Source: Lophium mytilinum
Lineage: Eukaryota > Ascomycota > Dothideomycetes > Mytilinidiales > Mytilinidiaceae
Length of the DNA: 64,000 nt
Reading direction: 5' to 3'
NCBI GenBank assembly: GCA_010093605.1
Contig: MU004197.1
Location: 310,001-374,000, forward strand
Position 1 is the stretch's first letter; each line of letters starts with the position of its first letter. The notes beneath the pieces are model-generated. The model was given only the letters and a program-made list of their open reading frames with translations. It was not told where the DNA came from and did no database searches. The translations under genes and the position numbers were made by a program. Shown piece after piece: positions 24,551-42,029 of this stretch.

Positions 24551-25896
24551 ATGTCCGACTACGAGGATGAGATGGACGTTGACGCGCCCGCCATCGACGC
24601 CCCAGTCAAGTTCACCTCAGACAATACCAACTCGAAAGGGAAGAGAAGCGCTGCAAATCTACCAGTAGAAGCTGAAGACTCATTGCCATGGTACTTGTTC
24701 CTATCTCTACGTCGATGCTCTGGCTAATTGGCTTTTAGGGTAGAGAAATACAGACCAAATACTCTAGACGATGTGGAGGGCCACCAAGACATTCTGGCAA
24801 CCATCAACAAGTTTGTAGATACAAATGTGCGTCCGAAGGACTTTCTGTTTCGACAGTAGAAACAATTGCTAACAGGCCTCAGCGACTGCCTCATCTTTTA
24901 CTGTACGGACCCCCAGGAACGGGGAAGACATCGACAGTTCTCGCTCTCGCACGACGGATATACGGGACCAAGAACATGAGGCAGATGGTCTTGGAGCTGA
25001 ATGCTTCCGATGACAGAGGTATCGATGTTGTCCGGTACTGGCCATTCTACCACTACCCTTTGGGGATCCGGCTAATTGTTCATAGAGAACAAATCAAGAC
25101 CTTCAGCAGCACGAAACAAATCTTCTCCGCGGCACCCCAACCAGGTGACCATGTAACGCTTGCCACCTTCAAACTCATCATCCTCGACGAAGCGGACGCA
25201 ATGACATCTACCGCACAGATGGCTCTACGAAGGATCATGGAAAAATACACCGCAAACACCCGCTTTTGCATCATCGCAAACTATACCCACAAGCTCTCGC
25301 CCGCACTACTTTCCCGGTGTACACGATTCCGATTCTCTCCTCTCAAGGAACCTGACATCCGGCGGCTAGTGGACAAAGTCATAATCGAGGAGAACGTAAA
25401 CATCACACAGGATGCTACCGAATCTTTGGTCACATTGAGCAAAGGTGATATGCGGCGAGCTCTCAACGTTCTCCAAGCATGCCACGCTTCAAGCACCCCA
25501 TTACAGATCCCGGGCAAACCAGCGCCAGATCCCAAGACCATTGTCCGGGATCAGATCACGCAAACTACAATATACGAGTGTATTGCTGCACCTCACCCAG
25601 AAGATATCTACCGGATAATGGAGTTGCTCTTAACAACATCGGATGTCACGCAGTGTGTCAAGACAATCGGTTCGCTGAAAGCGGCAAAGGGTTTGGCATT
25701 AGCGGACATTCTAGCCGCGCTAGGAGAGGAGTTGGTCAAACGGGACGTTCCGACGCAAACCATGGTGATGTGGATGGAAGGACTTGCGGAAATCGAGTAC
25801 CGGCTGAGTGGTGGTGGAAGTGAGGCTATCCAGACGGGGGCAGCGATCGGGGTGGTGCGAACGGGTGTTGAATTGATGGCGAAAGGAAGAAAATGA
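24551..25896 (+). CDS. RFC3: Replication factor C subunit 3 (clamp loader, small subunit)
   Basis: Exons 24551-24690, 24739-24835, 24883-25034 and 25086-25896 give 399 aa. After an acidic N-terminal tail comes WVEKYRPNTLDDVEGHQDIL, Walker A GPPGTGKT, Walker B ILDEADAMT, and the SRC arginine-finger motif ALLSRCTRFRFSPL, all intact; the C-terminal collar domain follows. It loads PCNA at primer ends as part of the RFC pentamer. The combination of sequence around NASDDRGIDVVREQIKTF and the C-terminal region fits Rfc3 best, though Rfc2/Rfc4 are close relatives. Introns are 47-51 nt. Confidence 0.93.
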
Positions 25897-26186
25897 AGGT
25901 TTGAAGCTTCTCAGGTGAACTTCAGCGTATGATATCCACGGATCTTTCATGGCGTCATGATTCGGTATCTCATTATGAGAGGTTCAATCAACCAAACTAA
26001 TATACATCTTACGTTATGAAGCTTTGCTGATGACGAGCTGAAGAGTATCCTAGGTGGACACTGCAACGTTTTCTTATTTCACGACGGCCCAAAAGATGGA
26101 TACTACTAACGGTCCGCTTGCAAGATACGATGTTCACTGCTCCTAAAACACTCAAGAAAATAAGTAAATACTACAGGTGCATCACG
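25897..26186. other. RFC3 downstream region
   Basis: No gene is seen. It holds the probable RFC3 3' UTR and spacer before the tRNA-like cluster. Confidence 0.4.
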
Positions 26187-26306
26187 TCCGGCACCAAGGA
26201 TCGAACTTGGGTCTTGTCAGGCGGGTCAACTTCTATCCACCTTATAGGTGGACCCGAAAAAATCCTCAAAACCTAACACCATGCTAACCAACTACACCAC
26301 ACCGGG
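26187..26306 (-). tRNA. tRNA-like sequence 1 with long anticodon-arm insert (possible intron-containing tRNA or pseudogene)
   Basis: Read on the minus strand it has an acceptor strand CCGGTG pairing with TGCCGG, a D-arm/A-box TGGTGTAGTTGG, an anticodon-side stem TGTTAGG/CCTGACA, and a perfect T-arm (CCAAG-TTCGATC-CTTGG). About 50 extra bases sit in the anticodon loop and fold as an inner hairpin (CCACC/GGTGG). Position 1 mismatches. No U33-anticodon can be assigned safely, so it may be a pseudogene. Confidence 0.5.
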
Positions 26307-26482
26307 TTAGAGACCACGGTGGTATTGACAGGCTTATGTGCCCATGGCCAGATTTTGGGGGGGGGAGTACGTTCTTATCCTATTGTCGCGTAAACTGACT
26401 TTCCTTTTCTCACAGAATGTTAGCTAGCACAGCAATGCTTTGATGAACATGCAGAATGGCAAAAGAATAAGACTCGTGAAAG

Positions 26483-26574
26483 TCCGGCGCCAAGGATCGA
26501 ACTTGGGTCTTGTCAGGCGGATCCTGCAACAGGCTCCTATCCTGACATATTATAACCGACTAAACCACACCGGA
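26483..26574 (-). tRNA. tRNA-like sequence 2 with inserted hairpin
   Basis: Acceptor strands TCCGGTG/CGCCGGA pair fully, and the T-arm CCAAG-TTCGATC-CTTGG is perfect. A 7-bp stem TGTCAGG/CCTGACA occupies the anticodon position, enclosing a 23-nt insert with a CCTG/CAGG hairpin. The D-arm (TGGTTTAGTCGG) is weaker than in copy 3. The anticodon is not identifiable. Confidence 0.5.
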
Positions 26575-26705
26575 TTAGACTTGCTGCTGAAAGACGAACC
26601 TCTTAAGCACATGACGATATGACAAGCGTTCGTTCACAGCCTTCATGATATACTATCAACGCTTTAGTCGAGGCCTCATGTGGCAGAAACTAGGGGTCGA
26701 AACAG

Positions 26706-26798
26706 TCCGGCGCCAAGGATCGAACTTGGGTCCTGTAGGCGGATGTGGTGGTCATCCGTAGGGACATATCTCATGCTAGCTAACTACACCACACCGGA
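26706..26798 (-). tRNA. tRNA-like sequence 3 with inserted hairpin
   Basis: Acceptor TCCGGTG/CGCCGGA pairs with one G-U, the D-arm TGGTGTAGTTAGCTAGCAT is good, and the T-arm is identical to the other two copies. The anticodon region holds a CGGATG/CATCCG hairpin with loop ACCACCA, not a normal anticodon arm. The anticodon is not identifiable. Confidence 0.5.
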
Positions 26799-27268
26799 TT
26801 GGAGAGAGAGAGAAAAGATAACAGACTTGTATTCCCATAGGTATGGTTTCTGTGCTTAGTCGTTTCTTTAGTGTCCAAAACCTGCTATACGATATCTCTT
26901 CTAGTAGCCCCTAGTGGCGATTTGTTTCCGGGAGCGTGGTGAAAGTGGTTCGGTTCCAACAATAGTTTGTCCGAAGTCGTGTGCCTGAGTGCTTAGTTTG
27001 AACAGAATGGCAAGTGATCACCCCATTCAAACACAGTGGTATTCTTTCAAATCACCACAACTATCCTAGTATAGATATAAGTAAGTATCAAGCGGCTTTT
27101 CTTTCGCAATTCAATTAAACTATGTTTCCCTCGTAGATCTTGCTCTTGTGATTTTCTACATAAGCAGCCAGCCTTCCAGACCTGCAAGTATTGCCACAAC
27201 TGCTGAGGGGTTCCTGGTTTCCTCTTATTTCCAAAGGTCGTCCATTAGCTCAAGATTAAGATATTGAG
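26799..27268. other. Spacer upstream of family copy F
   Basis: No gene is seen. It includes the presumed promoter of copy F. Confidence 0.35.
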
Positions 27269-28000
27269 ATGGCAGAAGACAGACTTGGACGTACCCTTCG
27301 CTCTCCTCCGGATCAGCCCAATGAGGATGACAAGCCCAAACATGGCATTGGCAAGAGACCTGCTCAGAACCCTCCAGGAAAGCCTGCAAAAAAGCGTGTC
27401 AGGAGGCGTTCCAGGAGGCCCGCGTCATTGAATGCTCATCCGGATGACAAATATGACAGGAGAAAGCGCGAAGAAGGTGTTGAGAATGGTTTACAAAAGG
27501 GAGACATCATCGAGACGGACCTACGCAGTCCTTTCGTTCGCTTCAGCGACCCGTGCTTCGATACCAAAGCGCTCGGAATGCAGAAGGCCGACGACAAAAT
27601 GGTCGGAGTGACGTGCAAAGCCGTCAAATGCTCTCGCGAGACCGCGCTCTATGTGTACGACGAACGACCATACACCTCCCCAGCCAAAGCAGCATTCATC
27701 CGTACCCATCTCTTCGCTCGCCTGCAGAAGATCAACTCTGCCGAGAATAAGAAAGAAAGGTACCTCCAGCGATCGCTAGCCCAGCAGGCTGATGAGTTGG
27801 TAACGTACCACACTCGCGACAATGGTACTCAACACTATGCCGATTTAAAGCCAGATGAGTCTGAAAAGTGGCACGAATGGGCAGTCTGGATTAGGACAGC
27901 CACGCGGTATGGCTTGATTCATAGAAAGGAAGACGGCTGCGAGTGCTGTAAGGTTGAGCTTCAGAAGAGGTGGCTCTATCCATGGTTGATGATGATTTAG
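27269..28000 (+). CDS. Paralogous cluster family, copy F (unknown function)
   Basis: An intronless 243-aa protein from ATG at 27269. The N-terminal 60 residues are very basic with a KKRVRRRSRRPAS nuclear-localisation-like stretch. The C-terminus, W-HEWAVWIRTATRYGLIH then DGCECCK, matches the end of copy E (TWAEWIREAVYTGVWHL then EECECLG) and more distantly copies A-D (WAKW-x6-AGLFH-x5-C). A VKCSRET cysteine lies where the others have CxxHC. No signal peptide or membrane segment. With copy E it forms the divergent, plus-strand pair at the two edges of the cluster. Family and role unknown; the family assignment rests on visual alignment. Confidence 0.65.
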   Translation: MAEDRLGRTLRSPPDQPNEDDKPKHGIGKRPAQNPPGKPAKKRVRRRSRRPASLNAHPDDKYDRRKREEGVENGLQKGDIIETDLRSPFVRFSDPCFDTKALGMQKADDKMVGVTCKAVKCSRETALYVYDERPYTSPAKAAFIRTHLFARLQKINSAENKKERYLQRSLAQQADELVTYHTRDNGTQHYADLKPDESEKWHEWAVWIRTATRYGLIHRKEDGCECCKVELQKRWLYPWLMMI

Positions 28001-28458
28001 ATAGTCTTCTTTGAAGGAATCTAGAGTCTTTTCCGTTCATTGTGGCAACTCTAGCGGGAATTTAAACAAGTAGATGAACTTCTGGATTTGGGCGGTATTT
28101 TGTTTCCAACTATTAGATGGTGATACAAGTTTGCTTGAACTATTCACACTATGGATGAGGGAATTCTCGGGGCGAGATGTGATGAATCTACTACCTCCTC
28201 CACTTCACTAGTCCCTAGTCTGGAAGAATCATCCGTCTGTGATGCCAAACCTCACAGCGTATCTATTGCATTGAACCTCAGGTATTACGCAAAATGTCTT
28301 TCTCTTCGATCTAACCGCAGTCACCGACATGCCCGAACCTCTGAAAACTTTGAAGGGATATCTCAAAACACCCATGCCGCAATTTAAACCCCAAACATCG
28401 CCTAACCTTAGCAGACTTGGCTCGAAACGCTAGAGATGTTCGCTTTCGCCTCCTCTTC

Positions 28459-29253
28459 TTACTCTCCGAAAGCCCGCTGGACCTGCTTTTGGAAAGATCC
28501 GTACCGCTCATCTGGGCGATGGAAGAGCCCCGAAGCAGCAGAATTCGCAATCCACTTTGCCCACTCTACATTCGCTCTGACAAAATTAGGATCAAAACCA
28601 CGGTACTCAATATCCAGGGTCTGCACCTCCTCCAAATACCCAGCTAAATAAGTGGAAATTTGGTCGATGGAAGGTATGTTTTGGTCGTTCTTGATGGCCT
28701 TAGCCGTCTCTATGTCATAAAAACGTTCTAGACCCTCCAGCATCCTGTTGCGATGAGCGAGGTTCGAGTTCGGAACGGTGGAGCGGAGTCTGGCGACTTC
28801 CTCCTCGCGACAGTGGTTCTCGCATTGCGTATCACCGGTATGAACGTCGAGTCCTTGCTTCGCAGCCTCGTTATGGGAACTTTGAGGTGGTGCCAAGGCG
28901 GTGAGCGTGTTGGTCTCAGCTGCAACCTATATTATACTTAATCAAATCAGCGCTAGACTCACTTTCATTCTCCCCGGGTACCGTAGAGTTAGATTCTCCA
29001 TCTTTTGCTCGGCATCATCGATGTTCTGAGCTAGAAAGTGCAAAAAGGGCTGGTAGCCTTACCTGGAGGCCTTGGGAGTTTGATCCTTTGGCTGATTTGT
29101 TAGTAGACTTGTTACTCTAATTGAGTGGATTGAAGCCTTGCCTTGCTCTTGTGCGGCCTTTTGCGCGGTTGATGGAATGCTCTTTTGATTTTGGTCGGCC
29201 TCTTTCTGCTTCTGAGTTCTTTTTGGGTCAACGCGGAGGCTGTAAGGTTTCAT
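28459..29253 (-). CDS. Paralogous cluster family, copy A (unknown function, possibly degenerate)
   Basis: The last exon (28926-28459) encodes the family domain: CENHC, REEEVARL, HRNRMLEGLERFY, DIEYRGFDPNFV, then WAKWIANSAASGLFHRP. The first exon begins at ATG 29253 with MKPYSLRVDPKRTQKQKEAD, matching the PYNLR starts of copies B and D. A short middle exon 29025-28963 is open in the right phase. The obvious donor (GTAAGG at 29062) leaves a 2-nt overhang that throws the middle exon into a stop, so either another donor (GTAACA near 29115) is used or the gene is broken. It lacks the acidic TYFE segment, and the final conserved Cys is Tyr. Confidence 0.5.
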
Positions 29254-29762
29254 GGTGATAATCGCTTTGGTAAAGAGTTGGCTTCCTGGGAGGGTGTGGA
29301 GTGTGTGCTGATGCCGTTTCTGGCGATGATTGGCAGAGTTGATGGAAGATATCGCTTTGAGCAGCTTACACAGAAGACTCATATAGAGCCAGAGAACAAA
29401 CCTAAGTGGCGAACAGAATGTGTGTCCCCAAGCATGTGACAATTCCACACTGGTGCTCACGCTCACGAGCAAACTATCCACGGCGTCGAACTGACTTATG
29501 GTTTAGTGATTGTGGTCTGCGTGGCCGAAATTGTCCAAATAGCAGTATCACGGGCCTGGCTGGCTTTTCGCCTGATAAATCGAACTAGACTAATACTCTT
29601 TTCGCCAGTGCAATCAAGTGTACTCATTGTCTTTGCTACCATTGTGTGAGACAGAAAAGCGAAGCCGAAGTCAAGCCCCCCCCCCCACAGCTCAACAAAC
29701 GATAATGAAACCTCAAGAAAGAACCCAAACCTAGCAGCTCCACCCCATATCTGTCCTCGCTC

Positions 29763-30818
29763 TCACTCTCCGCAAGCTCGCTTCACCTGCTCTCGAAAGG
29801 ACCCGCACTGTTGATTCGGGCTATGAAATAGTCCAGCTGCTGCAGCGGTGGCCACCCACTTCGCCCACTTCAAACGACTTTCCACAAGGTCAGGGTCGAG
29901 GCCACGGAACTCGAGATCGAAGTACTTCATACTCTCTATGGAGCAGACTAGATCAGTGGCGATCTGTCTCGGAAGTAGCATGGGACTATTGTCGCTGGCG
30001 GTTTTGAAGAGCTGTTTCCGATAAAGGCGCTCCAGGTCATCGAGGAGATCATCACGCCGCTGGAGCACCGCGTCTGGTGCGGCTTCATGGAGTCTGGCGA
30101 TTTCGTCGTCCCTGCAATGAAGAACGCATTGGGTGTCGGAAAGTGTTAGCTGTCCTAACAAAATCGTTTGGAGGTCCTCGACATCAGGATAGGTTGTGCC
30201 ATCGTCATCCGCGACGGCATCATCGGTGGCACTGGAGTGAACTGTTCTTTTCGGAGTAGATGTCTCAGCATCCCCCATGGTGAAGTCTGTTTTGTCCATG
30301 TCCATGCGAGATGCATCCGCGCTTGTGGCCTGGGATTCCTCGGTCACCGAGCTTGAGTTCCGAGCTTGGAATAGGGTGATACTAGTGTCATCTTCATCCG
30401 CTACCTGAGAACCAAGGAATCAGCTTTCTTTTCACCCTCGAGCAACTCAGAGGTACTTACTGTGGTATCATCCACTCCTTGAACGGTATCGTCGACGTCC
30501 TGTGATGGAGTAATGTCACGAAACCCGGCGAAGTCGCGTGCTCGGGGTTCTCGAGAAGGTTGTATCTGTCCCAACATCTGAAACGATCATCAAGTTAGGA
30601 TTGGCTTTGATGAGACTCGGAAATACCCGCTTGCTCACCTGAAGAGTCCCATAGTTCGGAGCCTTGAGCAATTGATCACTGGCACTGCTAATCCAGCTGG
30701 TTGAAGTCTTCCCTGCAGAATTGCTAGACGTTCCGGTAGTAGCATCGATCGGCTTGTCCTCAGCTTCCTTGGCCTTTCGAGACTTCTCTGGCGAGCGGCG
30801 AAGATTGTATGGAGGCAT
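29763..30818 (-). CDS. Paralogous cluster family, copy B (unknown function)
   Basis: Exons 30818-30639, 30577-30461 and 30404-29763, both introns phase 0, give 312 aa. Exon 1: MPPYNLRRSPEKSRKAKEAE, basic, then Ser/Thr-rich. Exon 2: MLGQIQPSREPRARDFAGFR with a D after it. Exon 3: an acidic segment, then CVLHC, DDEIARL, DDLLDDLERLY, DLEFRGLDPDLV, WAKWVATAAAAGLFHSP and CGSFREQV. No signal peptide, membrane segment or known domain. The MULE transposon starts 179 bp upstream of its start codon, so the original promoter may have been cut or replaced. Exon structure is the same as in copies C, D and E, which argues for a functional, selected gene model. Confidence 0.7.
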
Positions 30819-30988
30819 GGTAGAATAAGCTTTGGTATATTGATGAGGCTTCGAGGTGTTATAGATTAAGAATGGGCTTGAATGTCGTTGGCGGTTAGTG
30901 AAGTAGGTGGGATGTAGACTCGAGGAAGTTACAGGGCTGTTTATATGGCAATCGATACAAACCAGAAAGGTGAATATAATATCTGCCC

Positions 30989-30996
30989 CCAGAAAA
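30989..30996. repeat. Left target-site duplication of the MULE
   Basis: CCAGAAAA directly before the left inverted repeat; the identical octamer follows the right inverted repeat at 34219-34226. Confidence 0.75.
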
Positions 30997-31068
30997 GGGG
31001 AGGGATAAGCGCACACCCCCTAATTCCTCCACGCACGCCCCCTAATTCCTCCACGCACACCCCCCTAT
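30997..31068 (+). repeat. Left terminal inverted repeat of the MULE (72 bp)
   Basis: Begins GGGGAGGGATAAGCGCAC and matches the reverse complement of 34147-34218 without mismatch. It contains about 2.5 tandem copies of a ~21-bp unit built on CCCCCTAATTCCTCCACGCA. Beyond 72 bp the two ends stay related but diverge. Confidence 0.9.
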
Positions 31069-34000
31069 TGTCTAATTATTTTACCACCTTCTAATTAGCT
31101 TGGATTACTGCTCCGGAGCCTCTAAGTGGCTCGCTTAGCTTACGTATAGTTTCTAAATGCCCACTCTATATACAGCGTAGCTATAAATAACTATATTCTT
31201 ATTCTATACCTCTATAATATACTTACTATAAACCTCCTACCGCCGCTATAGTAGTTCTATAACTTCTTAAAGAAAGCTAAGCATGCGCTTATAGAGCACG
31301 TAAAGGCGCATGGCTATAGCTTAGTAAAAACCTACTTAAAGAAGGATAAGAAGGGCCTAGAAGTAAAGAAAGTATAGTTTAAATACTACTTTAGAGGTAT
31401 AATAGAGCCTATAAACTATATATATAGTACCTCTACTAATAGAGTAGACTATAAGATAAATAGTATACTTACTTAGTAGCCTTCTAGCTTTAATAGTAAA
31501 TATATATAGCTATAGAAGATAATAAAGGCCTTTTATAATAACTATTCTACTCTACTTAAATTAATAGTAGTTGCATGTAATAGGAAGCGCTTAGTATTAA
31601 TAAACTAGCTTATTTAAGCTAATGTATTAAGCGGAATAAGGCCTATAGAGACGCACGTAAAGCTGCTTAAGAAGGGGGTAACTATTACTCTAATAGATAT
31701 TAGAAACGAGCGTATATAGTAGCGGAAGAAGCTTCTTAATAGCCTTACACCTATCTAGGCGCTCCTTAATATATTAGAAACCTCTATATTTCTAGCATCT
31801 AATAGCTATAATAGAAAGTATATATATAACTTTATAAAGGATAAGTAGAACTAGATTAAATACCTCTTCTTTATACACCTAGATTCTATTAAAATTCTCT
31901 AATTAAACTATAATATTATACTATTAGATTGCACCTATAAGACTAATAGATTTAGTATACCCTTTCTCTATATTACGGGCGTTACCTATATAAGTAATAA
32001 CTTTAAAATTAGTTACTATTTCCTTCTAAAAGAAAAGAAGATAAACTATAACTAGGTAGTATAGTAGCTCTTTAAGCTCTTTAAGTGCTATTCTATTATA
32101 CTATATATTTTTCTAATAGATAAAGAATAAGCTCTAAGAAACGCACTATATAAGTAATAGCCGAGAGTTCCGCGCCTTCTCTATATATAGTATATTAAAA
32201 AGAACATTATTACTAAGCTAGCTAAGGTATATAAGAAGGAACCTAAGTATACTATAGGTAGCGCGCTGCCTGCGCCTACGCCTATATTAGATAAAGAGAA
32301 GAAAGCTATTAAAAAGAAGAAATAAGAGAAAAGGGGCGCCTTTATTACCCGTTAGATAGCTATAATAAAGCTAGAAGTCCTAGCTTAATTTAAAGAGGCT
32401 TAGAATAAGCTACTTAATAACTATAAGAAGCGCCCTAATCTAGTAAAGTATATAGAGGATAAGTAGTAGCTATATAGATAGAATTAGGCTAGCTACTATA
32501 CTTATATAGCGCGGCACTTTAGTACTATATAAGTAATTTTTCTTAATACTAAGATATCTAAATTTAATGCCTAAACTTTACACGGGGTCTATATACATGC
32601 TAAATAAGTAGTACTAAAGAGAATAAAAGTATAGCTTAAAGAATAACTAAGAAATAAAGAAGTAGTAGAGGTATATAATACTAATTTAATTTCTTATAGT
32701 ATTATATTATAGAATAAGGGCGCGCACGGCTAGCTTAAGGGCTTTCTCTAGGTATTAACTAGCTATCTATTTAATATTCTCCTTAATATATAGAACCTTA
32801 TTCTTACTACTAAAGTAAAGTATAAGAACCTTAAGGTAGTATAGCACGCCCGAACTTATTATAAGGTTAATAAAAAGGAGTTCCGTAATCTTATTAAAAA
32901 GGTAACGCTGTAGACACTTATTTACCTTAAGAAGTAAATTAAAAAGGCGAAATTAAATAAATATAACCCGCGTAACTATACCTAGACTTTTACTTCTATC
33001 TATAGTATACTATGCGCTTATACTCTTTATAATTATCTATACTAAGCGGCTACTACTCTTTCTTCTTTAGATCTAGTGCTCTATATATAACTAGAAGAGA
33101 TAAATTACTATTAGTAGTTTATTTAGCCTAGAGTATATTAGCTAGCTATTTCTTTTAGCCCCTTTAATAAGGTACTTAATCCTGCTATTATTAAGTATTA
33201 TTAGGGCCGCCCTGCTATTATAAGAAGAGGTTATTATATATATAATAATACCTAGAGAGATCTATTAAGATTTAAGATTACTATAGGTATAGGTGCGGTA
33301 GCTAGACCTATAGGTATACCTATAGGACGCACGCTAACAGTTCTACTATTAAAACCGCCTAATTCTATAGCCCCCCGTCTACCTTCTATTACTTAGAGTG
33401 CTTCTTAGTTAGCTGCTATACTAGCTATTATAGATTTTAATAATTTACTTACTAATCTACCTAAGTTTAAGTATATAGTAATATATAGGCCCTTTTCTAT
33501 ACCCGCACCTATTACTATACCTATCGCCGCACCTATTACTATATTTAAGAAGCGTAGCCGGCCTCTTAGTTTAAAGAATAAAGTACTAAGGAAGAAGAGA
33601 GTAGTTATAGATTACTAGAATAGTGCTTATCCTAAGCCTTAGCTAGCTCCTTAGCCTTAGCTAGCTCCTTAGCCTTAAGCAGCGCTAGCGCTGCTTTCTA
33701 TTAAGAAGCTTTAATATTAAATAGCATTATATAATTAGTATATAGAGGGGTTAATAGATTAGAATAGCTAGGGAGGCGCGGCGGCAATATAGGGGGGCTA
33801 GGTTTAATGCGGAGAGGCTGTAATAAGGTAAGAATTTAACTATTTTAGTATACTTATAGGTATATAGGTATATAGATAGTAATATAATAGCCTATATATA
33901 CTATAGGAAATAGAAAGTATATATAGTAAAATAGGTATACTATATAGCCTTACTATAAGTACGGCCTTACGCACGGCCTATATATATAGCCTTATCTATA

Positions 34001-34146
34001 GCCTTATCTATAGCCTTACGCGCAGCTAAATATAGGCTGTTAGAAACGGTAAGAATGCACGATAAAATGGGAAGGCTGTGCAGCCTTACTATTTTAAGCG
34101 CCGGAGCAGTGATCCGAGCCCTCCGGGCTAATTAGAAGATTAGATG

Positions 34147-34218
34147 ATAGGGGGGTGTGCGTGGAGGAATTAGGGGGCGTGCGTGGAGGAATTAGGGGGT
34201 GTGCGCTTATCCCTCCCC
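34147..34218 (-). repeat. Right terminal inverted repeat of the MULE (72 bp)
   Basis: Reverse complement of the left end, perfect over 72 bp; ends in ...GCGCTTATCCCTCCCC and is followed by the CCAGAAAA target duplication. Confidence 0.9.
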
Positions 34219-34226
34219 CCAGAAAA
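34219..34226. repeat. Right target-site duplication of the MULE
   Basis: CCAGAAAA, identical to 30989-30996. Confidence 0.75.
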
Positions 34227-34731
34227 TGACTGCGTTAGTCGCAGGTTTTAGGTAGCAGGGGGCCGGGAGTCTTTTCCAGTGAATATGTATGCCCAGTCGA
34301 GGTCATGAGAGCGTGTTTCTAGTAAGTTGGTCGTATTTGCGAAGAAGCAGCTGCCTGTTTAACCGCGTTTGCATTGAAGTCATGGGATTTTCTCGTCTTT
34401 CCTACAAACCTGCGAAGCTACTGGTGCGCCGAGGTTGTAAGGGGGTACGCTATCACGTAGTAAGCTGTGAGGTCGCATTGGGAATGGCTGTCCAGTGACA
34501 CTTATCATTGGAAGTGGCGCAGAAAGGAGCTTTAAAACTGCTGCATTTCAGTCGAGATACCTCTCGTTCCTGTATTGAGTAAAAAATTGATAGCTTGACC
34601 CTTTTGATCGAAACTCGGAAGTAGATCGACCCAGACTCCTCACGAAAATGACAGTACCGCTCAGAAGCAAAACAGAACGTGATACTTCCACAGATACGAA
34701 CAATTTGCCTGACCTTGCTCTGAATCTGCTC
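34227..34731. other. Spacer between the MULE and copy C
   Basis: About 500 bp downstream of the copy C stop codon, with normal base composition. No gene is seen; probably the copy C 3' region. Confidence 0.4.
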
Positions 34732-35982
34732 TTATCGAACCTGGTCTCGAATGGAGACGCATTGCTCATTAGGATAATGAATCAGCCCACCTTCCGCCGC
34801 CTTCCATGCCCAATCCGCCCAAGCTAGACGAGCTTCCACGACAAGAGGATCAAGGTATCGGACCTCAATGTCTTCTTCCTTATGGTCTTTGCGGAATTTG
34901 AACAGATCTTCCGCGACTTCGCTCAAGGGAAGAATAGGTCGGCCCCGCTTTGCAGCCCTCTCTTTTTGTATGCAATACGCGCGGTCGAGATCGTCCAATG
35001 CACAGCCCCTGTATGAAAGACTTCTTGCCGGAGAAGCAGCATACAACCGAGCTGCCTCTTCTTTGGTGCAATGGTGGGGGCAAGGAGGTGCGGACTCTTC
35101 TGGTACCGCTGTTGCGGTTGGCGACTCGAAGTCCTCGCCTGGATATGGAACACTGTCTTCTTCCCCATACGAATCATCGATGACCCTGTCGTCCGGGAAC
35201 TTCCTTTTGAAGCGCAATTTTGCTGGAGCTGTTGGAGATTCCACGTCTTTATCCGCATAGACTGAGTCATCTGGTTCGAAATAGGTGTCATCGATGACCG
35301 TGCCGTCCGGGAATTTCCTCTTCGGTGGCAAGGCTACTGTTTCAATTGGAGCGGCGACACCCTCATTTGGGTCGTTGGGTTCGAAAACAGTTTCTTCAAT
35401 GACGCGGCTGTCATCTAGTGCTGTGAAGGACGGTGTGTCCAGAAGCGTTATTGGCGAGAGGTTAAGGGGGTGATCTCCTCCGTCTTTGTCCGTCGCTAGT
35501 TGTACTTCTGAGCCCTCTCCACCGAACGCTCGTCCAGATCGATGCCTTGATTTGACAGCCTGTGTATCTTGCTCTAGAGACGCCTGTAATTAAGTATATC
35601 AGCCATCTGCAGGCATTGCTCACGGTGCCAGCGGCAGCACTACATTGGGTACTCACAGTGGAAAAAGCTCTCGGAGTTTCTGTGCCGTCGCGACTCTCAG
35701 AGGGGAGCTTATCACGGAATCCAGGAATGTTACGAAATCGAAGCTTTCGCGAGTGTTCTCCATGGTCCAGAATCTAGGCTGTAGTGTCAGCGCGAAAAAA
35801 AAACTAGTTAACAATAGTAGAGGTCAATAATTCCCTACCTGTAATTTCCGAGCGTTCGGAAGTGGTTGACTTGGTTGAGATAACGGAGCATGCGCGGGAG
35901 CTTTGCCTTTTCTACGCTTCTTGGATGCCGGAGCTCTCACATCTTGGTCCTTTAGCTTTCGTGATCGAAGCTCAGGTGGCAT
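34732..35982 (-). CDS. Paralogous cluster family, copy C (unknown function)
   Basis: Exons 35982-35839, 35773-35657 and 35583-34732, all phase 0, give 370 aa, the longest copy. Exon 1 starts MPPELRSRKLKDQDVRAP and is Lys/Arg-rich (SKKRRKGKAPA). Exon 2 contains RKLRFRNIPGFRD, aligning with the FAGFRD of copy B. Exon 3 has an acidic motif repeated in tandem: KRKFPDGTVIDDTYFEPDD then KRKFPDDRVIDDSYGEEDS, with a weaker third copy upstream (DDSRVIEETVFEPND). The family domain follows: CPHHC, KEEAARL, YRGCALDDLDRAY, WADWAWKAAEGGLIHYP, C-x4-DQVR, then the stop. No known domain. Confidence 0.7.
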
Positions 35983-36377
35983 GCTTGTGAGTACGAGGAC
36001 TATATAAAAAGTAGCGGGTAGTAAGCCTGCTAATCTAGTGATGTCGTGGGCTGGTTGCCGATGGTTGTCCGGTGGTGGGGGGCGTGAAGAATAAATAGAA
36101 AGCAACGAGAAGAGCGCCCTTTTCCATACGCGAGATATAAGCTTGGAACAATAAAATAGTACAGTAGCCCTGAAAATTTAAGTTCGTGAATGTCGAGCTA
36201 TCAACTTTACGAACGCAAGGAGTGAAGTATTGGAATAGTGTCTACTCTATGTTCATTAGGCGCACAAAGCCATGTAGTCACTGGTTGACCCAAATTCCCG
36301 CAAATAGCAAAACGCTGCCCCGCTTTAGACATCGCTAGAAACTCAGAAGAGATATTAAGTCCTTGGGCTTGCGAACC

Positions 36378-37462
36378 CTAAGGGTCTCGATCCAGAACCT
36401 GATCGCGGAGCGATCCGCACTGTCCACGTGGGAGGTGGAAGAGACCCGCTTTGGCTGCTTTCACAGCCCACTTCGCCCATTCAGTTTGCGAGTCGACGTA
36501 GTACACATCCAAACCACGATGCTCGATGTCGTTATCTCGATCTCGCATGAGATACCTCGCGTGGTCAGTAGCAATAACGACGAGGGGACGAACCACATAT
36601 CCAGCGTACTTCTCCGCCTTCGCTTGCTCAAGGAGGAAGATCCGCTCGATGCCGTCCAAGATGCAGTTTCGGTACGCAATCTCCGTCCGAGGAGCAATAG
36701 CATGAAGTCGGGTCGCCATATCTTCGTCGCAGTGTCTTGAGCACGCGACTTCAGTCTTGGCGAGGCCGTCCGCAGCTGTCTGGAAGTCCTCGTCCGGATA
36801 CTCCTCGTCGTCTGACTCGAAGTACGTGTCTTGAATCTCCACGCCGTCGAACCTCCCCTTCGGCGTGGACTCTGCGTCAGGCATGGTGATATCTGTCCTG
36901 TCTTGCAGATCAATCTGCGAGATACCCAAGGAGATGACCCCTTCGTCCTCTTCAGTTGCAAGCTCAACCGGTCGACCCTGGGCATCGACTAACTGGCTGC
37001 CCTCCTTCCACACTGAGACAACCCGATCGTCCTTTTCAAAAGGAACATCCTGCTACACACGGACATATTAGATTTTGAGTTATCCTGAAAGGGGGGACAT
37101 CGCCACTTACAGAGGACGGTTCTACTTTAATAGTGGTGGTGTTGTCGGCAATATCGAATTGGCTAGGTTTCTCGCGATACCCAGCCCACTTGTTTCGAGC
37201 GGTGGGGTGGACAGTCAGTGGCACTTGGCCAAGCATCTAATGGAGAAGATTAGTAAAACAGGTCTTTCGTCGTTTCTGACTAAAATGAAGCGCTTACGCC
37301 CAGTGTTTGAAAGTTCGGCAGAGCTGGCTGATGCGAAGGAGCCTTGTAAGTATTTGCTGTATGTTTTCCTCGCGTTCCATTGGGAGCGGCGGGTGCGGTC
37401 TTGAATTCTTGCTCCTTGCGCGCCTTGTGGTCTGCGTTGCGGAGGTTGTATGGGGCCGGCAT
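36378..37462 (-). CDS. Paralogous cluster family, copy D (unknown function)
   Basis: Exons 37462-37298, 37236-37111 and 37049-36378, phase-0 introns, give 320 aa. It starts MPAPYNLRNADHKARKEQEF, exon 2 starts MLGQVPLTVHP (compare MLGQIQPS of copy B), and exon 3 carries GRFDGVEIQDTYFESDDEEY, a single copy of the motif that is duplicated in copy C. Then CSRHC, DMATRL, YRNCILDGIERIF, DIEHRGLDVYYV, WAKWAVKAAKAGLFHLP and CGSLRDQV. Likely nuclear or cytosolic, as there is no signal peptide. Function not recognised. Confidence 0.7.
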
Positions 37463-38522
37463 GTTATCTGAGTTGAGTGTAGATTATGTGGGAGAAACGG
37501 CTGGTCAGCAAGGTTTGCGGTTTACTAGTTGCGTAGTTTGTGGAGAGCCAGTTGTTGGTGTTGGTTGCGCTAGTAAGTATGTTATGAAGCTGATTGTAGG
37601 GATTAATGGGTTTATATAGGTAAAAGAAACAAGCGAAGGGCAGTGAACGGAGGGAGCGTGCCTGGACTAGTGGGCTCTAGTGTTGTAGCATCTTGAAGTG
37701 TAAAATTCACATCTAAATTGATTTAGTTTTTTGGGACTTCGTCGGGGATTACTGACGAGAGCCTCGCAAAACGGAGCGTGTCCCCGCTGTGAGTTCTCTA
37801 CGAAATCGCACGCTTGGAGGTGGAGAGGATTGGAGCTTTACTCCTACCGGAGAAAGACGAGTGGATTGCAGTTTAGATTTGGCCCTAGAGAGGTATCTTG
37901 AGCAAGCAGGACTGCGAGCCATATGCGTGGTGCTTGATAGTATAGATTAGCGGGTTCCCAATCCTTACTCCTATGGTTCATCGATGGGATTAGGTCTTAG
38001 AATTGCAGTATAACTTGCATTGGGCCGCAAATACGATCAGATGAGGCAATCCTAGAGTCAGGCAACCCAACAGATTGGTAAGTGCCCGGAATACACCCAG
38101 GGGAGACGGTTATATGCATGATTGGTCGACCGGATCTCGACAACAAAGCGTTTGTTCTATATATAACGCGAGTTAGCATACGCGATCTTCCAGCTGGAAC
38201 GTCGGAAGTTCACCGTCAAGTCTGCCGCCGTACGTAGCCCACTCGGTCAGCCTGATGCGACTTGCTTCTTTGTTTATGTCGTTATTCAGTTCACTGTCTG
38301 GTTTTGCCGTCGTTGCTATAGTAAATAGACTGAAATCTCGGCATAACCGTCAGCACATCTATTATGCCCAAAGAATAGATATATAAGAGTGGACTTACAA
38401 GTTCCCCGTTCTCAGGTCGCCACTCCGCAACCTCCACAACTGCAACACCACCGCGCCAGACCTTCCACACCACATCGACTGAATCTCTGTATAGTATTAT
38501 TATATTACATATCCAATACAAA
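37463..38522. other. Spacer between divergent copies D and E
   Basis: 1.06 kb between the two start codons. No supported gene. It presumably holds both promoters. Confidence 0.4.
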
Positions 38523-39592
38523 ATGTCTCTCGGCAGGCATGAAAGAGAGATGATGAGGAGGTTCAAGATCCTCCAGCAGCAAGGCCTTGTGCCATCCCCT
38601 CCCCTATTCAGCAAAGAGGTAAGCCAAAATTATCGGAGCAGTGAAGCATATCATTACTAAATGAATACGGCAGGATGATCCCATAGAGGCTGCAGAATCG
38701 CAGCAAGATCCGATGCAGATCCCAGCATGGCGGTCGCGAAAGCCGCTGGCCGATCCCGCCGTCAGTCCACCCGGTCGATCTCTTCGCGAGATTCAGGAAG
38801 CGTTGCGGGCCAACGATAACGAAGAACACGAGCACCCACGGAGGGTAGAGTCACCAATCGACTTCGGCCTGGGAGAGGTAAGTCAATATGGGTGGTATGA
38901 ATCGGAGTTCGAATACTTACATCGTCTAGTCCGACAAAGCAAGTCTTTTGGAGCATGCCCCCTCGCCAACCCGCCCTAGTTTCCGGGCATCTCATACCTT
39001 CGATTCTCCACCGAGCTCAGGCTATGTGCCGAGTACAGCTACAAATCGTATCCCCTCATTCCCAGATACGGATTGGAACCAAGCCCCACTGGCTTTATAC
39101 TTCGAGACGATGAGCCACCTGGTTGATCGTCACCTCATATACTCCGAGATCCGTACCGGCTTGCACTCGAAGCCTGCGGTAGATGGACGATCACCGACCA
39201 CGTGCAGTGTACCCAAAGACGTAACCGAGGCGCACCTTGCTGGTGAAGGGCAGGCTATCGCGCACCGGTCGTCCGCCCAGATCGCCGGCTCTATCGTTCA
39301 AAGGATCGAGAGGATGATTTGTATGGATAGGCAACGGGTTGCGCAGGATTCCGCGTGGGTACATCCAAAGCCTCAGCCCAAGCCACTAAGAGAGATTGTG
39401 GCTGATATGTTCCACTACCTAGAGCAGGCCAAGGAAAAGCGCGTCGCAGCCGGAGAGAGCCCATGGTACGTGGTTCACGAGTTGACCTGGGCCGAATGGA
39501 TTCGCGAGGCGGTCTATACTGGAGTGTGGCATCTCGCGGGAGAGCGGGAGGAGTGCGAGTGTCTCGGTGTGGCCGTGTATGAGGCCGACTGA
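38523..39592 (+). CDS. Paralogous cluster family, copy E (divergent member, unknown function)
   Basis: Exons 38523-38618, 38674-38877 and 38930-39592, both introns phase 0, give 320 aa, the same length as copy D. The start is MSLGRHEREMMRRFKILQQQ, without the PYNLR start of the central copies. Exon 2 has a basic/Pro-rich stretch with PGRSLREIQEALRANDNEEH. The C-terminal domain is diverged: VQRIERMICMDRQRVA, a lengthened middle, then LTWAEWIREAVYTGVWHLAG and EECECLG. It has a TTCS cysteine but no CxxHC. The shared intron pattern, plus the WAxW-G-H-C ending, ties it to copies B-D; the ending is closest to copy F. Confidence 0.65.
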
Positions 39593-40090
39593 CTTGAAAT
39601 TTGGTTGACATAAAATCTGTAGATAGGCTCTGAAAGAAACCTAGATTTGTCTTGGCGTTATAGAGATGGTGCGCTTCGCTCCGGTTTAGAGTCCTGGTAA
39701 CGTGTCAGTCTCGGGTCTTATCTATAAAGTCATACACATGTCGGATAAATTGCGCTTCCACATCCTTGAGTGTTCTCCAGGAACTCCGTATTTCTCGCTG
39801 CTAGATCTGCTGTGTCAAATGTCGAGCTCGAGTGTTTTCATTTTCCACTCGTTGGTTTGAGAGGATGGATAACACATGTCAAAAGATATGAACACTTTCC
39901 GCGTACTACTGTCAGTTTTGCTGCTACCGCGGCCACTGACATCAGCAGTAACTCAAGATACTTAGTAATATTTTAGCCAATATTTCCGCATGCCATGTTC
40001 CTCCTCTGATTTTTCATTCCCTTCACGAGAGATCCCTTCGACCCCAGGTATGGTTACCAAGCTAGCGTCCGAACCTGAACCGGTTTCTCC
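39593..40090. other. Intergenic spacer before the ALE1 3' end
   Basis: No gene is supported; probably 3' UTRs of copy E and ALE1, which converge here. Confidence 0.4.
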
Positions 40091-42029
40091 TCACTTTCTT
40101 TTAAACTCTGCCAACTTTTCTTCAACGGCCTTCCTGATATCCATCCCAACACTGCCACCCCTCTTCCGCCTCTCTTCAATCTCTTTCCTGACCTCCGCAA
40201 CAATCTCGTCCATCTCCGCCTCTGGATCATCTGGCAGTCCGAGAGTGGGTGCGCGTTGGATTCTCTCCTTTGCTTGCTCGATCTTGACGACTTCCTCGAT
40301 CTTGCCCTTGTTGCGTTTCTTGAGCTGGGCTTGGAGCTGTGGCTTGATAGGAGAATTGAGGGCACCAAAGCACACAGCGACGCCAATGAGGCAGTAAAAG
40401 TAGACACGGGACCAGACGGTGATGGAGCCTGTGAATGAAAGGAAGACAAAAGGTGCGACGGTGAAGGAGAAGGCGAGCTGGGTAATGAGTATCGTGACAA
40501 GGTCATAGTAACGCTTCTTGGGGGTCTCGGAGCCACCGTCGGCGGTAAGGAAGAATGGACGAAGCAGGCGACGGCCATCTGTGGCATGTTAGTCAGTTGC
40601 ACTGAAAGAAGTCGTGGTAGGGTTGAGATGTATACTCTTAGCAATCGTTTGTAGAAGAGATGCGAGGATGAAGGCCATGTAGTATCCTGGGTAAAAGCCG
40701 TGCCAGAATGCGCTGGTAAAGAAGGTGGCCAGAGTTGCCCGGAAGCCTGGCTTCTTGCCCTTTGGTGTTACCCTCAAATATACGTAGTTGCGGAGCCAAT
40801 TGTTGGTATTGATATTCCAGTTTCCAAGGTAAGCTCTCGTATTCTGTGCGGTTTCAATATCCCAGGGTCGGACATTCTGTAAGCGATGCCATGAGGCGCG
40901 CCCCGTCTTGGCGTCAATACCGTTGTAACCAATCCCAGAAAGGATACATGCACCTTCCGTTAACGACCAGACGCCATAGTACTTCATGCGAGTAGTCAGG
41001 CCAAGCATGTGAAGATTCCAAACTCGGCGAATGATCCCGTACTTGAGGAAATCGTCAGAGAGAAGGGCACTGGTGTTATACCAGGCGGAGAACTTGAGAA
41101 ACGCGAGAATCCAGAGGATGCCATAGCCAAAGTTCCAAGCTGCTGGAGTACCGCTGCGGGGAATCTTGCGCTTCTTGCGGGTCGGAGGGGCCTTGGAAGG
41201 ATCTACGCCGGGAGGAAGCTGGAACATACTGGTGCTGATGTATTGACGATAGTCACAGTAGTCGAACGCTGGACCAGCCATCAATCCAGGAAAGAAAAAC
41301 TACATGCCCCATGAGTAATTATGTCGAGAGTGCTGATACAAAAACTTACGACATATCCGGCGTAATCAAGCAGGTCGGGAATTTCTTTGATGGCATGCTC
41401 TTTCTGAAATTCAGAGAGCTCGGTTTCGGGAAGCTTTCCATCATACACATTCCAGCAGAATGCCGTGAGCTTCATGATCAAAACCATTTGGGCACCAGTG
41501 ATATCGATAGACCCAGGGTCATTGATGGTCATCCGGTGGATGTGGTTCACGGACATATGGCCCATGTTGTAGGCGAATCCGATCCACGGCATGTAAGGGG
41601 AATCGACGAACATGGCTATAGCATAAGTTACCCCCGATGCCCATATTAGCGTCCGTAGGCCATCCCAGAGGTCGAATAATCCAATGAGATAAAATAGGGA
41701 CACTCTGCACTGAGTTAGTGTGGTTTCGGAGATAGACATGAAGTGTCACGAACCCCACTATGAACACATTCTTCCGCCAAGGTAAATTATCGGGGATTCG
41801 TTTTAAGATGGCAGCAAGAGGATATGAGAGGAGGAAGGAAAAGATGAGTTTGACTGTTGACAGAAATTAGGTCCAGTACTCGCATAATACTATTGCCAAT
41901 CTTACGCTCATCCACGGAAGCTCCTAGGGCGTTTCCCGCATACTCAAAAGCTACCAGCGGGCAAGTTAGATGGCTTTCTACAAGTCTAGATCCCCAGATA
42001 GACTCACGGGCGTTGATATAGGGAAGCAT
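40091..42029 (-). CDS. ALE1: MBOAT lysophospholipid acyltransferase
   Basis: Six exons on the minus strand (42029-42008, 41950-41906, 41853-41754, 41704-41350, 41299-40636, 40578-40091) give 557 aa. It re-acylates lysophospholipids in the ER membrane (Lands cycle). MBOAT hallmarks are visible: the NINTNNWLRNYVYLR segment with the family Asn, and SAFWHGFYPGYY with the catalytic-type His. Many hydrophobic segments fit a polytopic protein (VSLFYLIGLFDLW; LVTILITQLAFSFTVAPFVF). The C-terminal ~90 residues are Lys/Glu-rich and probably cytosolic. It begins MLPYINAPFEYAGNALGASV as in fungal Ale1. Divergent from CWC27 (341 bp between starts). Confidence 0.93.

Follow-up and report, generated by a model that had tools for sequence, protein, structure and literature searches.

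The window analysed here is a 64,000-nucleotide stretch of the genome of the ascomycete Lophium mytilinum (assembly GCA_010093605.1; 43.18 Mb in 24 contigs), corresponding to positions 310001–374000 of the 1.6-Mb contig MU004197.1 (hereafter C17), and it contains a cluster of six genes whose products share a C-terminal domain. Two of these lie on the plus strand at the edges of the cluster: copy F on the left (27269..28000, an open frame of 243 aa from its ATG with a basic N-terminus and the domain at ~27611–27997, the single frame extending in full over 27260–28000) and copy E on the right (38930..39592, a C-terminal open frame with the domain at ~39212–39589, for which a start at 38523 had been given earlier). 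The other four are on the minus strand in the middle: copy A (28459..28926, a C-terminal exon with 155 aa open and the domain intact), copy B (29763..30818), copy C (34732..35982) and copy D (36378..37462). This arrangement had been proposed in an earlier annotation made from the letters of the window (the sequence-only reading), and the six C-terminal open frames are confirmed at the positions and on the strands it gave.

The same annotation regarded the six as local duplicates that had strongly diverged, and we find that they are homologous paralogues of one family. A profile hidden Markov model (HMM) built from the domains of the four central copies A, B, C and D, with both edge copies excluded, was searched against the 1317 open reading frames (ORFs) of ≥30 aa in the window and retrieved copy E at E = 3.3e-9 and copy F at E = 5.6e-7, against E = 2.0 for the next-best window ORF and 0.1 for the best match among ten shuffled sets; a lack of profile similarity between the edge and central copies was one of the results that the sequence-only reading had named as a refutation, and the family passes this test. 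An HMM of eight copies, with the edges again excluded, retrieved copy E at 1.1e-11 and copy F at 1.8e-9 (best among 20 shuffled sets, 0.18), and when run against 2820 ORFs of ≥25 aa from the window plus six 10-kb pieces it found the edge copies at 2.4e-11 and 3.9e-9, with all 13 frames up to E = 5 coming from the family. Queries with single edge sequences were much weaker than these profiles: copy E found C (1.7e-4) and D (1e-3) in the genome, and the matches of copy F up to E = 1 were two family members only (0.10 and 0.63). Strong divergence is also evident in the nine intact copies detected in the genome, which share 16–44% identity over the domain.

The motifs listed earlier for the domain could be refined. 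The proposed W-A-x-W-x6-[AG]-G-[LV]-x-H is found in all six copies when written as W-A-x-W-x7-G-[LV]-x-H, but only three have [AG] directly before the Gly, and the Cys said to follow it is present in five and replaced by Tyr in copy A. All four central copies carry the [IL]-E-x-R-x-[LF]-D block and neither edge copy does; the central copies also match the LD-x-[LI]-[ED]-R helix exactly or almost exactly, and the edge copies loosely. In the four central copies the domain opens with a C-x2-H-C, which that list omitted along with the upstream exons and five more copies elsewhere on C17.

Copies B, C and D have a common proposed three-exon structure, with exons at 30639–30818, 30461–30577 and 29763–30404 in B (introns of 61 and 56 bp; 313 codons, stop excluded), 35839–35982, 35657–35773 and 34732–35583 in C (introns of 65 and 73 bp), and 37298–37462, 37111–37236 and 36378–37049 in D (introns of 61 and 61 bp); the C-terminal open frames extend over 29763–30419, 34732–35589 and 36378–37052, respectively. 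The splice sites were picked by eye on three-frame translations, guided by similarity among the copies, and all six introns (56–73 bp) are phase 0. In each of them a CTRAY branch-site-like motif, the position of which was not picked, begins 17–22 bases upstream of the acceptor. The second exons are 117, 117 and 126 nt in B, C and D, with that of B starting MLGQI and that of D MLGQV. Copy A has a likely first exon (MKPYSLR...) at ~29062–29253 on the minus strand which has no clean frame join to the domain exon, and the 135 nt between them could not hold a second exon such as that of B. We note that a start resembling MPPYNLR on contig C7, the only other one in the genome, belongs to an unrelated frame. 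Copy C (34732–35589) carries two occurrences of an acidic linker motif, KRKFPDxxxIDDxYxExD..., D has a single similar one, and copy B has the end of the motif only (YPDxEDLQT).

A fold prediction, as the sequence-only reading had proposed, was made with AlphaFold2 using an alignment of the six window domains only, and was confident for copy B and of low confidence for copy F. The copy B model has a mean predicted local distance difference test score (pLDDT) of 90.3 and a predicted template modelling score (pTM) of 0.84, and consists of five helices (residues 7–16, 22–46, 53–73, 79–97 and 111–118). That reading had recognised no known domain, and this stands, with nothing significant in Pfam, NCBIfam, PHROGs or the PDB. 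No Pfam domain reached the cut-off in the six window proteins (best 0.026) and a further Pfam search gave 0.094 at best; there was no match in NCBIfam at 0.1 or in PHROGs at 0.01, and the best E in a PDB sequence search was 1.3. Foldseek found no PDB match at E ≤ 0.001 (best 1.5) and an unnamed viral model at 0.16 at best, and one protein query to each of the viral, plasmid, phage and prokaryote collections returned no homologue. The Pfam leads below cut-off, namely Mutator-like (0.026), UTRA (0.067), S8 N-terminal (0.079) and Coleoptericin (0.4) from the six proteins and P47 (0.094), DUF5685 (0.099), tnp2 transposase (0.14) and ZNF380 (0.17) from the further search, are taken as chance because no two of them name the same family and each came from a single copy. 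The MazG-like/DUF6378 all-alpha phage proteins are alike in being helical and of similar length; DUF6378 accounts for eight of the best 50 of 199 viral-fold matches with E ≤ 10 (E = 0.61 and worse), and the MazG-related 2yxh is among the best 50 of 66 PDB fold matches (E = 7.0), but with TM-scores of 0.18–0.39 we regard these as chance likenesses of helix bundles.

The lack of recognisable domains also bears on whether these might be allorecognition (self/non-self) genes, with diverged paralogues maintained by balancing selection. Such genes in fungi often occur in clusters, are polymorphic and are restricted to a lineage; however, their usual domains were not seen, with no Pfam match at cut-off in the six proteins (the upstream exons lying outside that scan), and we consider this explanation rather unlikely.

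When the whole genome was searched with six protein queries (the domains of copies D, M9, S2 and B, and the frames of E and F), 11 copies were detected, every one of them confined to one contig end, the left 350 kb of C17. Four are subtelomeric (15.9–16.3, 21.8–22.2, 24.5–24.8 and 25.2–25.6 kb), one, M9, is at 289 kb, and the six of the window cluster are at 337–350 kb. The expectation of many copies per genome is thus borne out modestly, on a single contig, and 11 should be read as a lower bound because the search scores only the best candidates and copy F was barely found by single queries, so equally diverged copies could be missed. Nine copies have an intact domain frame and two are broken: S4 (24.6 kb) has stops and frame breaks, and in M9 an inserted repeat splits the domain over two frames. 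The M9 query gave 32 matches at E ≤ 1, including 22 off C17, and 21 of these are limited to query residues 1–37; we read the 21, which were not individually inspected, as the dispersed repeat inserted in M9, and the remaining one is a frame on C1. This short repeat is found on many contigs and interrupts M9 at L013 6225–6606 (C17 ~289.2–289.6 kb), and same-strand pairs of it with a spacing of 450–481 bp occur twice on C7 and once on C18. Two candidate relatives on other contigs were rejected, as the eight-copy profile gave 2.2 for the frame on C1 (E = 0.0175 originally; a neighbouring frame gave 0.22) and 3.5 or worse across the locus on C4 (0.54 originally).

C17 opens with CCCTAA repeats, followed by ~14 kb of AT-rich sequence and then the four subtelomeric copies, so that the distance to the telomere-repeat end is at most 26 kb for 4/11 copies and at most 350 kb for all 11. 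The frames interspersed among the subtelomeric copies include an XPA-like gene, and beside them is an open frame (L011 6341–7636, plus strand) that combines a very basic stretch (MARVKKHRMSAKKRDAKRR...) with LQMPTNDFLSG-like repeats in tandem and was not listed by the family profiles up to E = 5. The window cluster is flanked by genes for a replication factor C subunit (24739–25893) and an MBOAT protein (40592–41299), and nine of ten chosen neighbour frames have Pfam matches, including cyclophilin, S3Ae, WAPL and Cpn60/TCP1. Because the cluster sits among these genes, we infer that the chromosome bearing the family is a core chromosome. To the left of the cluster there are also three related tRNA-like repeats (26186–26805), in which ARAGORN identified a tRNA-Pro (AGG) at 26482–26574; none of them was listed by Rfam at the gathering cut-off over 20000–45000 of the window.

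Between copies B and C lies a degraded terminal inverted repeat (TIR) transposon of ~3.2 kb (30997..34218) which is not a member of the family. Its TIRs of ~80 nt are 98% complementary and CCCAGAAAA adjoins both ends; a target duplication of 8–9 bp would suit hAT or Mutator-like elements. The interior has a G+C content of ~0.32, and the element shows RIP-like dinucleotides (repeat-induced point mutation, RIP) with extreme indices (TA/AT 1.82, CA+TG over AC+GT 0.27). Elements of 0.6–0.65 kb sharing the TIR are found on C6, C10, C15 and at C17:23468–24120. The transposon separating two copies, a ~0.65 kb element with the same TIR directly telomere-ward of the broken subtelomeric copy, and the sub-threshold Mutator-like transposase match in one window copy (E = 0.026) could together suggest that a transposon protein was domesticated to give the family, which would have spread by transposition and not by ordinary duplication. 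We think this improbable, however, as a scan of 26000–40500 for repeats of ≥25 nt found no good pair bracketing a copy, and those around C or D (I5 and I10) are short, 72–73% complementary and taken as chance. Furthermore, the TIR element is also present on seven other contigs, on none of which a family copy was found, and the copies are all at one contig end.

The sequence-only reading had proposed that the family is fast-evolving, expanding and possibly under diversifying selection, such as might act on secreted or translocated proteins facing a host or competitor. The low identity between neighbouring copies and the position of four of them ≤26 kb from the telomere would suit this. On the other side, the proportion of nonsynonymous differences (pN) is less than that of synonymous differences (pS) in 36/36 pairwise comparisons among the nine intact domains. 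The synonymous distance (dS, Jukes–Cantor) is infinite in 19 pairs and 1.23–2.93 in the other 17. Diversifying selection is not supported by these values. Nor is expansion, since near-identical pairs are absent among the copies found and the synonymous sites are saturated. We therefore give this explanation little credence. The pN/pS ratios of ~0.5 among the four central copies and ~0.7–0.9 for pairs with an edge copy suggest constraint, with a clear sign of it in the central copies and a weak one at the edges.

RIP was also considered as a source of the divergence and was ruled out by indices close to those of core genes, with TA/AT of 0.52–0.73 and CA+TG over AC+GT of 1.05–1.38 in the six genes, compared with 0.45–0.84 and 1.17–1.45 in five neighbouring core genes (a similarity which also tells against rapid diversification), and with extreme values of 1.75 and 0.28 in the telomeric AT-rich stretch. 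The one result leaning towards RIP is the comparison of the broken copy S4 with its neighbour S5, which are 62.4% identical in DNA (349/559) and show, from S5 to S4, 68 G/C-to-A/T changes vs 40 of the reverse, but this excess is not counted as RIP because it is unpolarised and the indices are ordinary. Saturated synonymous sites together with ordinary RIP indices make the duplications look old, with constraint as the apparent long-run signal. A tree of the nine domains had support for none of its six inner branches and so gives no order of duplication.

Old duplicates might also be decaying relics without a present function, as two of the 11 copies are broken and copy A has no room for the usual second exon. 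Yet nine domain frames remain intact despite the saturation of synonymous sites, pN is less than pS, and the proposed splice phases match in the three genes B, C and D, which leaves decay as a poor explanation in our judgement.

The domain is net negative in eight of the nine intact copies (pI 5.4–6.8; isoelectric point, pI) and so would not be an ordinary DNA-binding surface, while seven of the nine proposed N-termini are basic (pI 9.7–12.0). Basic clusters are found in copy C (KKRRKGK-like) and copy F (KKRVRRRSRR), and the proposed N-termini of S1 (L010 5933–6902; MARAKKTKQTKKGTRQP) and S2 (L011 1802–2902; AARKTAKNKPKQARKAPPR) somewhat resemble a histone H3 tail. None of the nine proposed N-termini contains a strongly hydrophobic stretch (the highest 9-residue Kyte–Doolittle mean is 0.39; no signal-peptide program was run), which also argues against secreted proteins under diversifying selection. 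Given the basic first exons and clusters in C and F and the absence of a strongly hydrophobic N-terminus, the proteins would stay intracellular and are probably nuclear. The layout may be that of a basic N-terminus, an acidic linker and a C-terminal helical domain, the latter two forming a protein–protein docking module, with different copies binding different or variant partners.

A zinc site may pin the ends of the domain together, formed by the Cys pair of the CxxHC, the His of G-[LV]-x-H and the later Cys. Scored by eye over all 11 copies, broken ones included, the first Cys of the CxxHC is present in 10, the second in nine (10 with an alternative alignment of E), the His in 10 and the later Cys in nine. 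The equivalent spacing in copy F is one residue longer, and S1 is without three of the four candidate ligands together. We consider this conservation suggestive.

Highly diverged tandem paralogues of this kind have been described before. The orphan paralogues of Neurospora crassa, according to PMC2684829, are tandem, subtelomeric, share a mean amino acid identity of 36.1%, and were judged ancient with no trace of RIP. The present family is like them in its very diverged tandem copies (16–44% over the domain here), in being ancient by divergence with genes lacking a RIP trace, and perhaps in a subtelomeric enrichment (4/11 copies within 26 kb), but unlike them in that the window cluster is 337–350 kb inward, between core genes. 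PMC2684829 covers a genome-wide class of N. crassa genes and not this family, so the kind is known and the family itself apparently undescribed; a search of the literature for the family or its motifs, at the level of titles and abstract openings, found no description.

Taken together, we suggest that tandem and short-range duplications along the left end of a single core chromosome gave rise to the family, whose later course has been one of birth-and-death evolution, mostly under constraint. An old, constrained, chromosome-end family of intracellular, probably nuclear docking proteins with a possible zinc site may well be the right description, although we hold it tentatively and several observations weigh against it. 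The domain of copy F is basic (pI 8.96), and as first sequence it models poorly (mean pLDDT 58.8, pTM 0.52), with a similar order of the longer helices; the proposed N-termini of M9 and S5 are acidic; copy E has no CxxHC (at least not the first Cys) and copy A no later Cys. The agreement in splice phase among B, C and D is partly by choice, as the sites were chosen with the other copies in view, and beyond these three the exon plan does not fit copy A and gave no exon model for copy E. The N-terminal part is also poorly conserved, since that half of copy B matches, at E < 1, only its own gene and the acidic stretch of D (E = 0.007). Finally, pN/pS is a weak test near saturation and without a neutral control, above all for edge pairs, and is compatible with selection on single sites. 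A more specific version, in which an undescribed zinc-pinned five-helix domain, lacking any close fold in solved structures, defines a family of nuclear adaptors kept on one chromosome end throughout duplications of an age that saturates synonymous sites, where the copies may act on the region or be co-regulated with it, seems to us doubtful on present evidence.

The family provides a defined and, for copy B, confidently modelled domain for some of the many fungal genes that lack annotation, and an example of diverged tandem copies which appear to be old and constrained and not new and racing.

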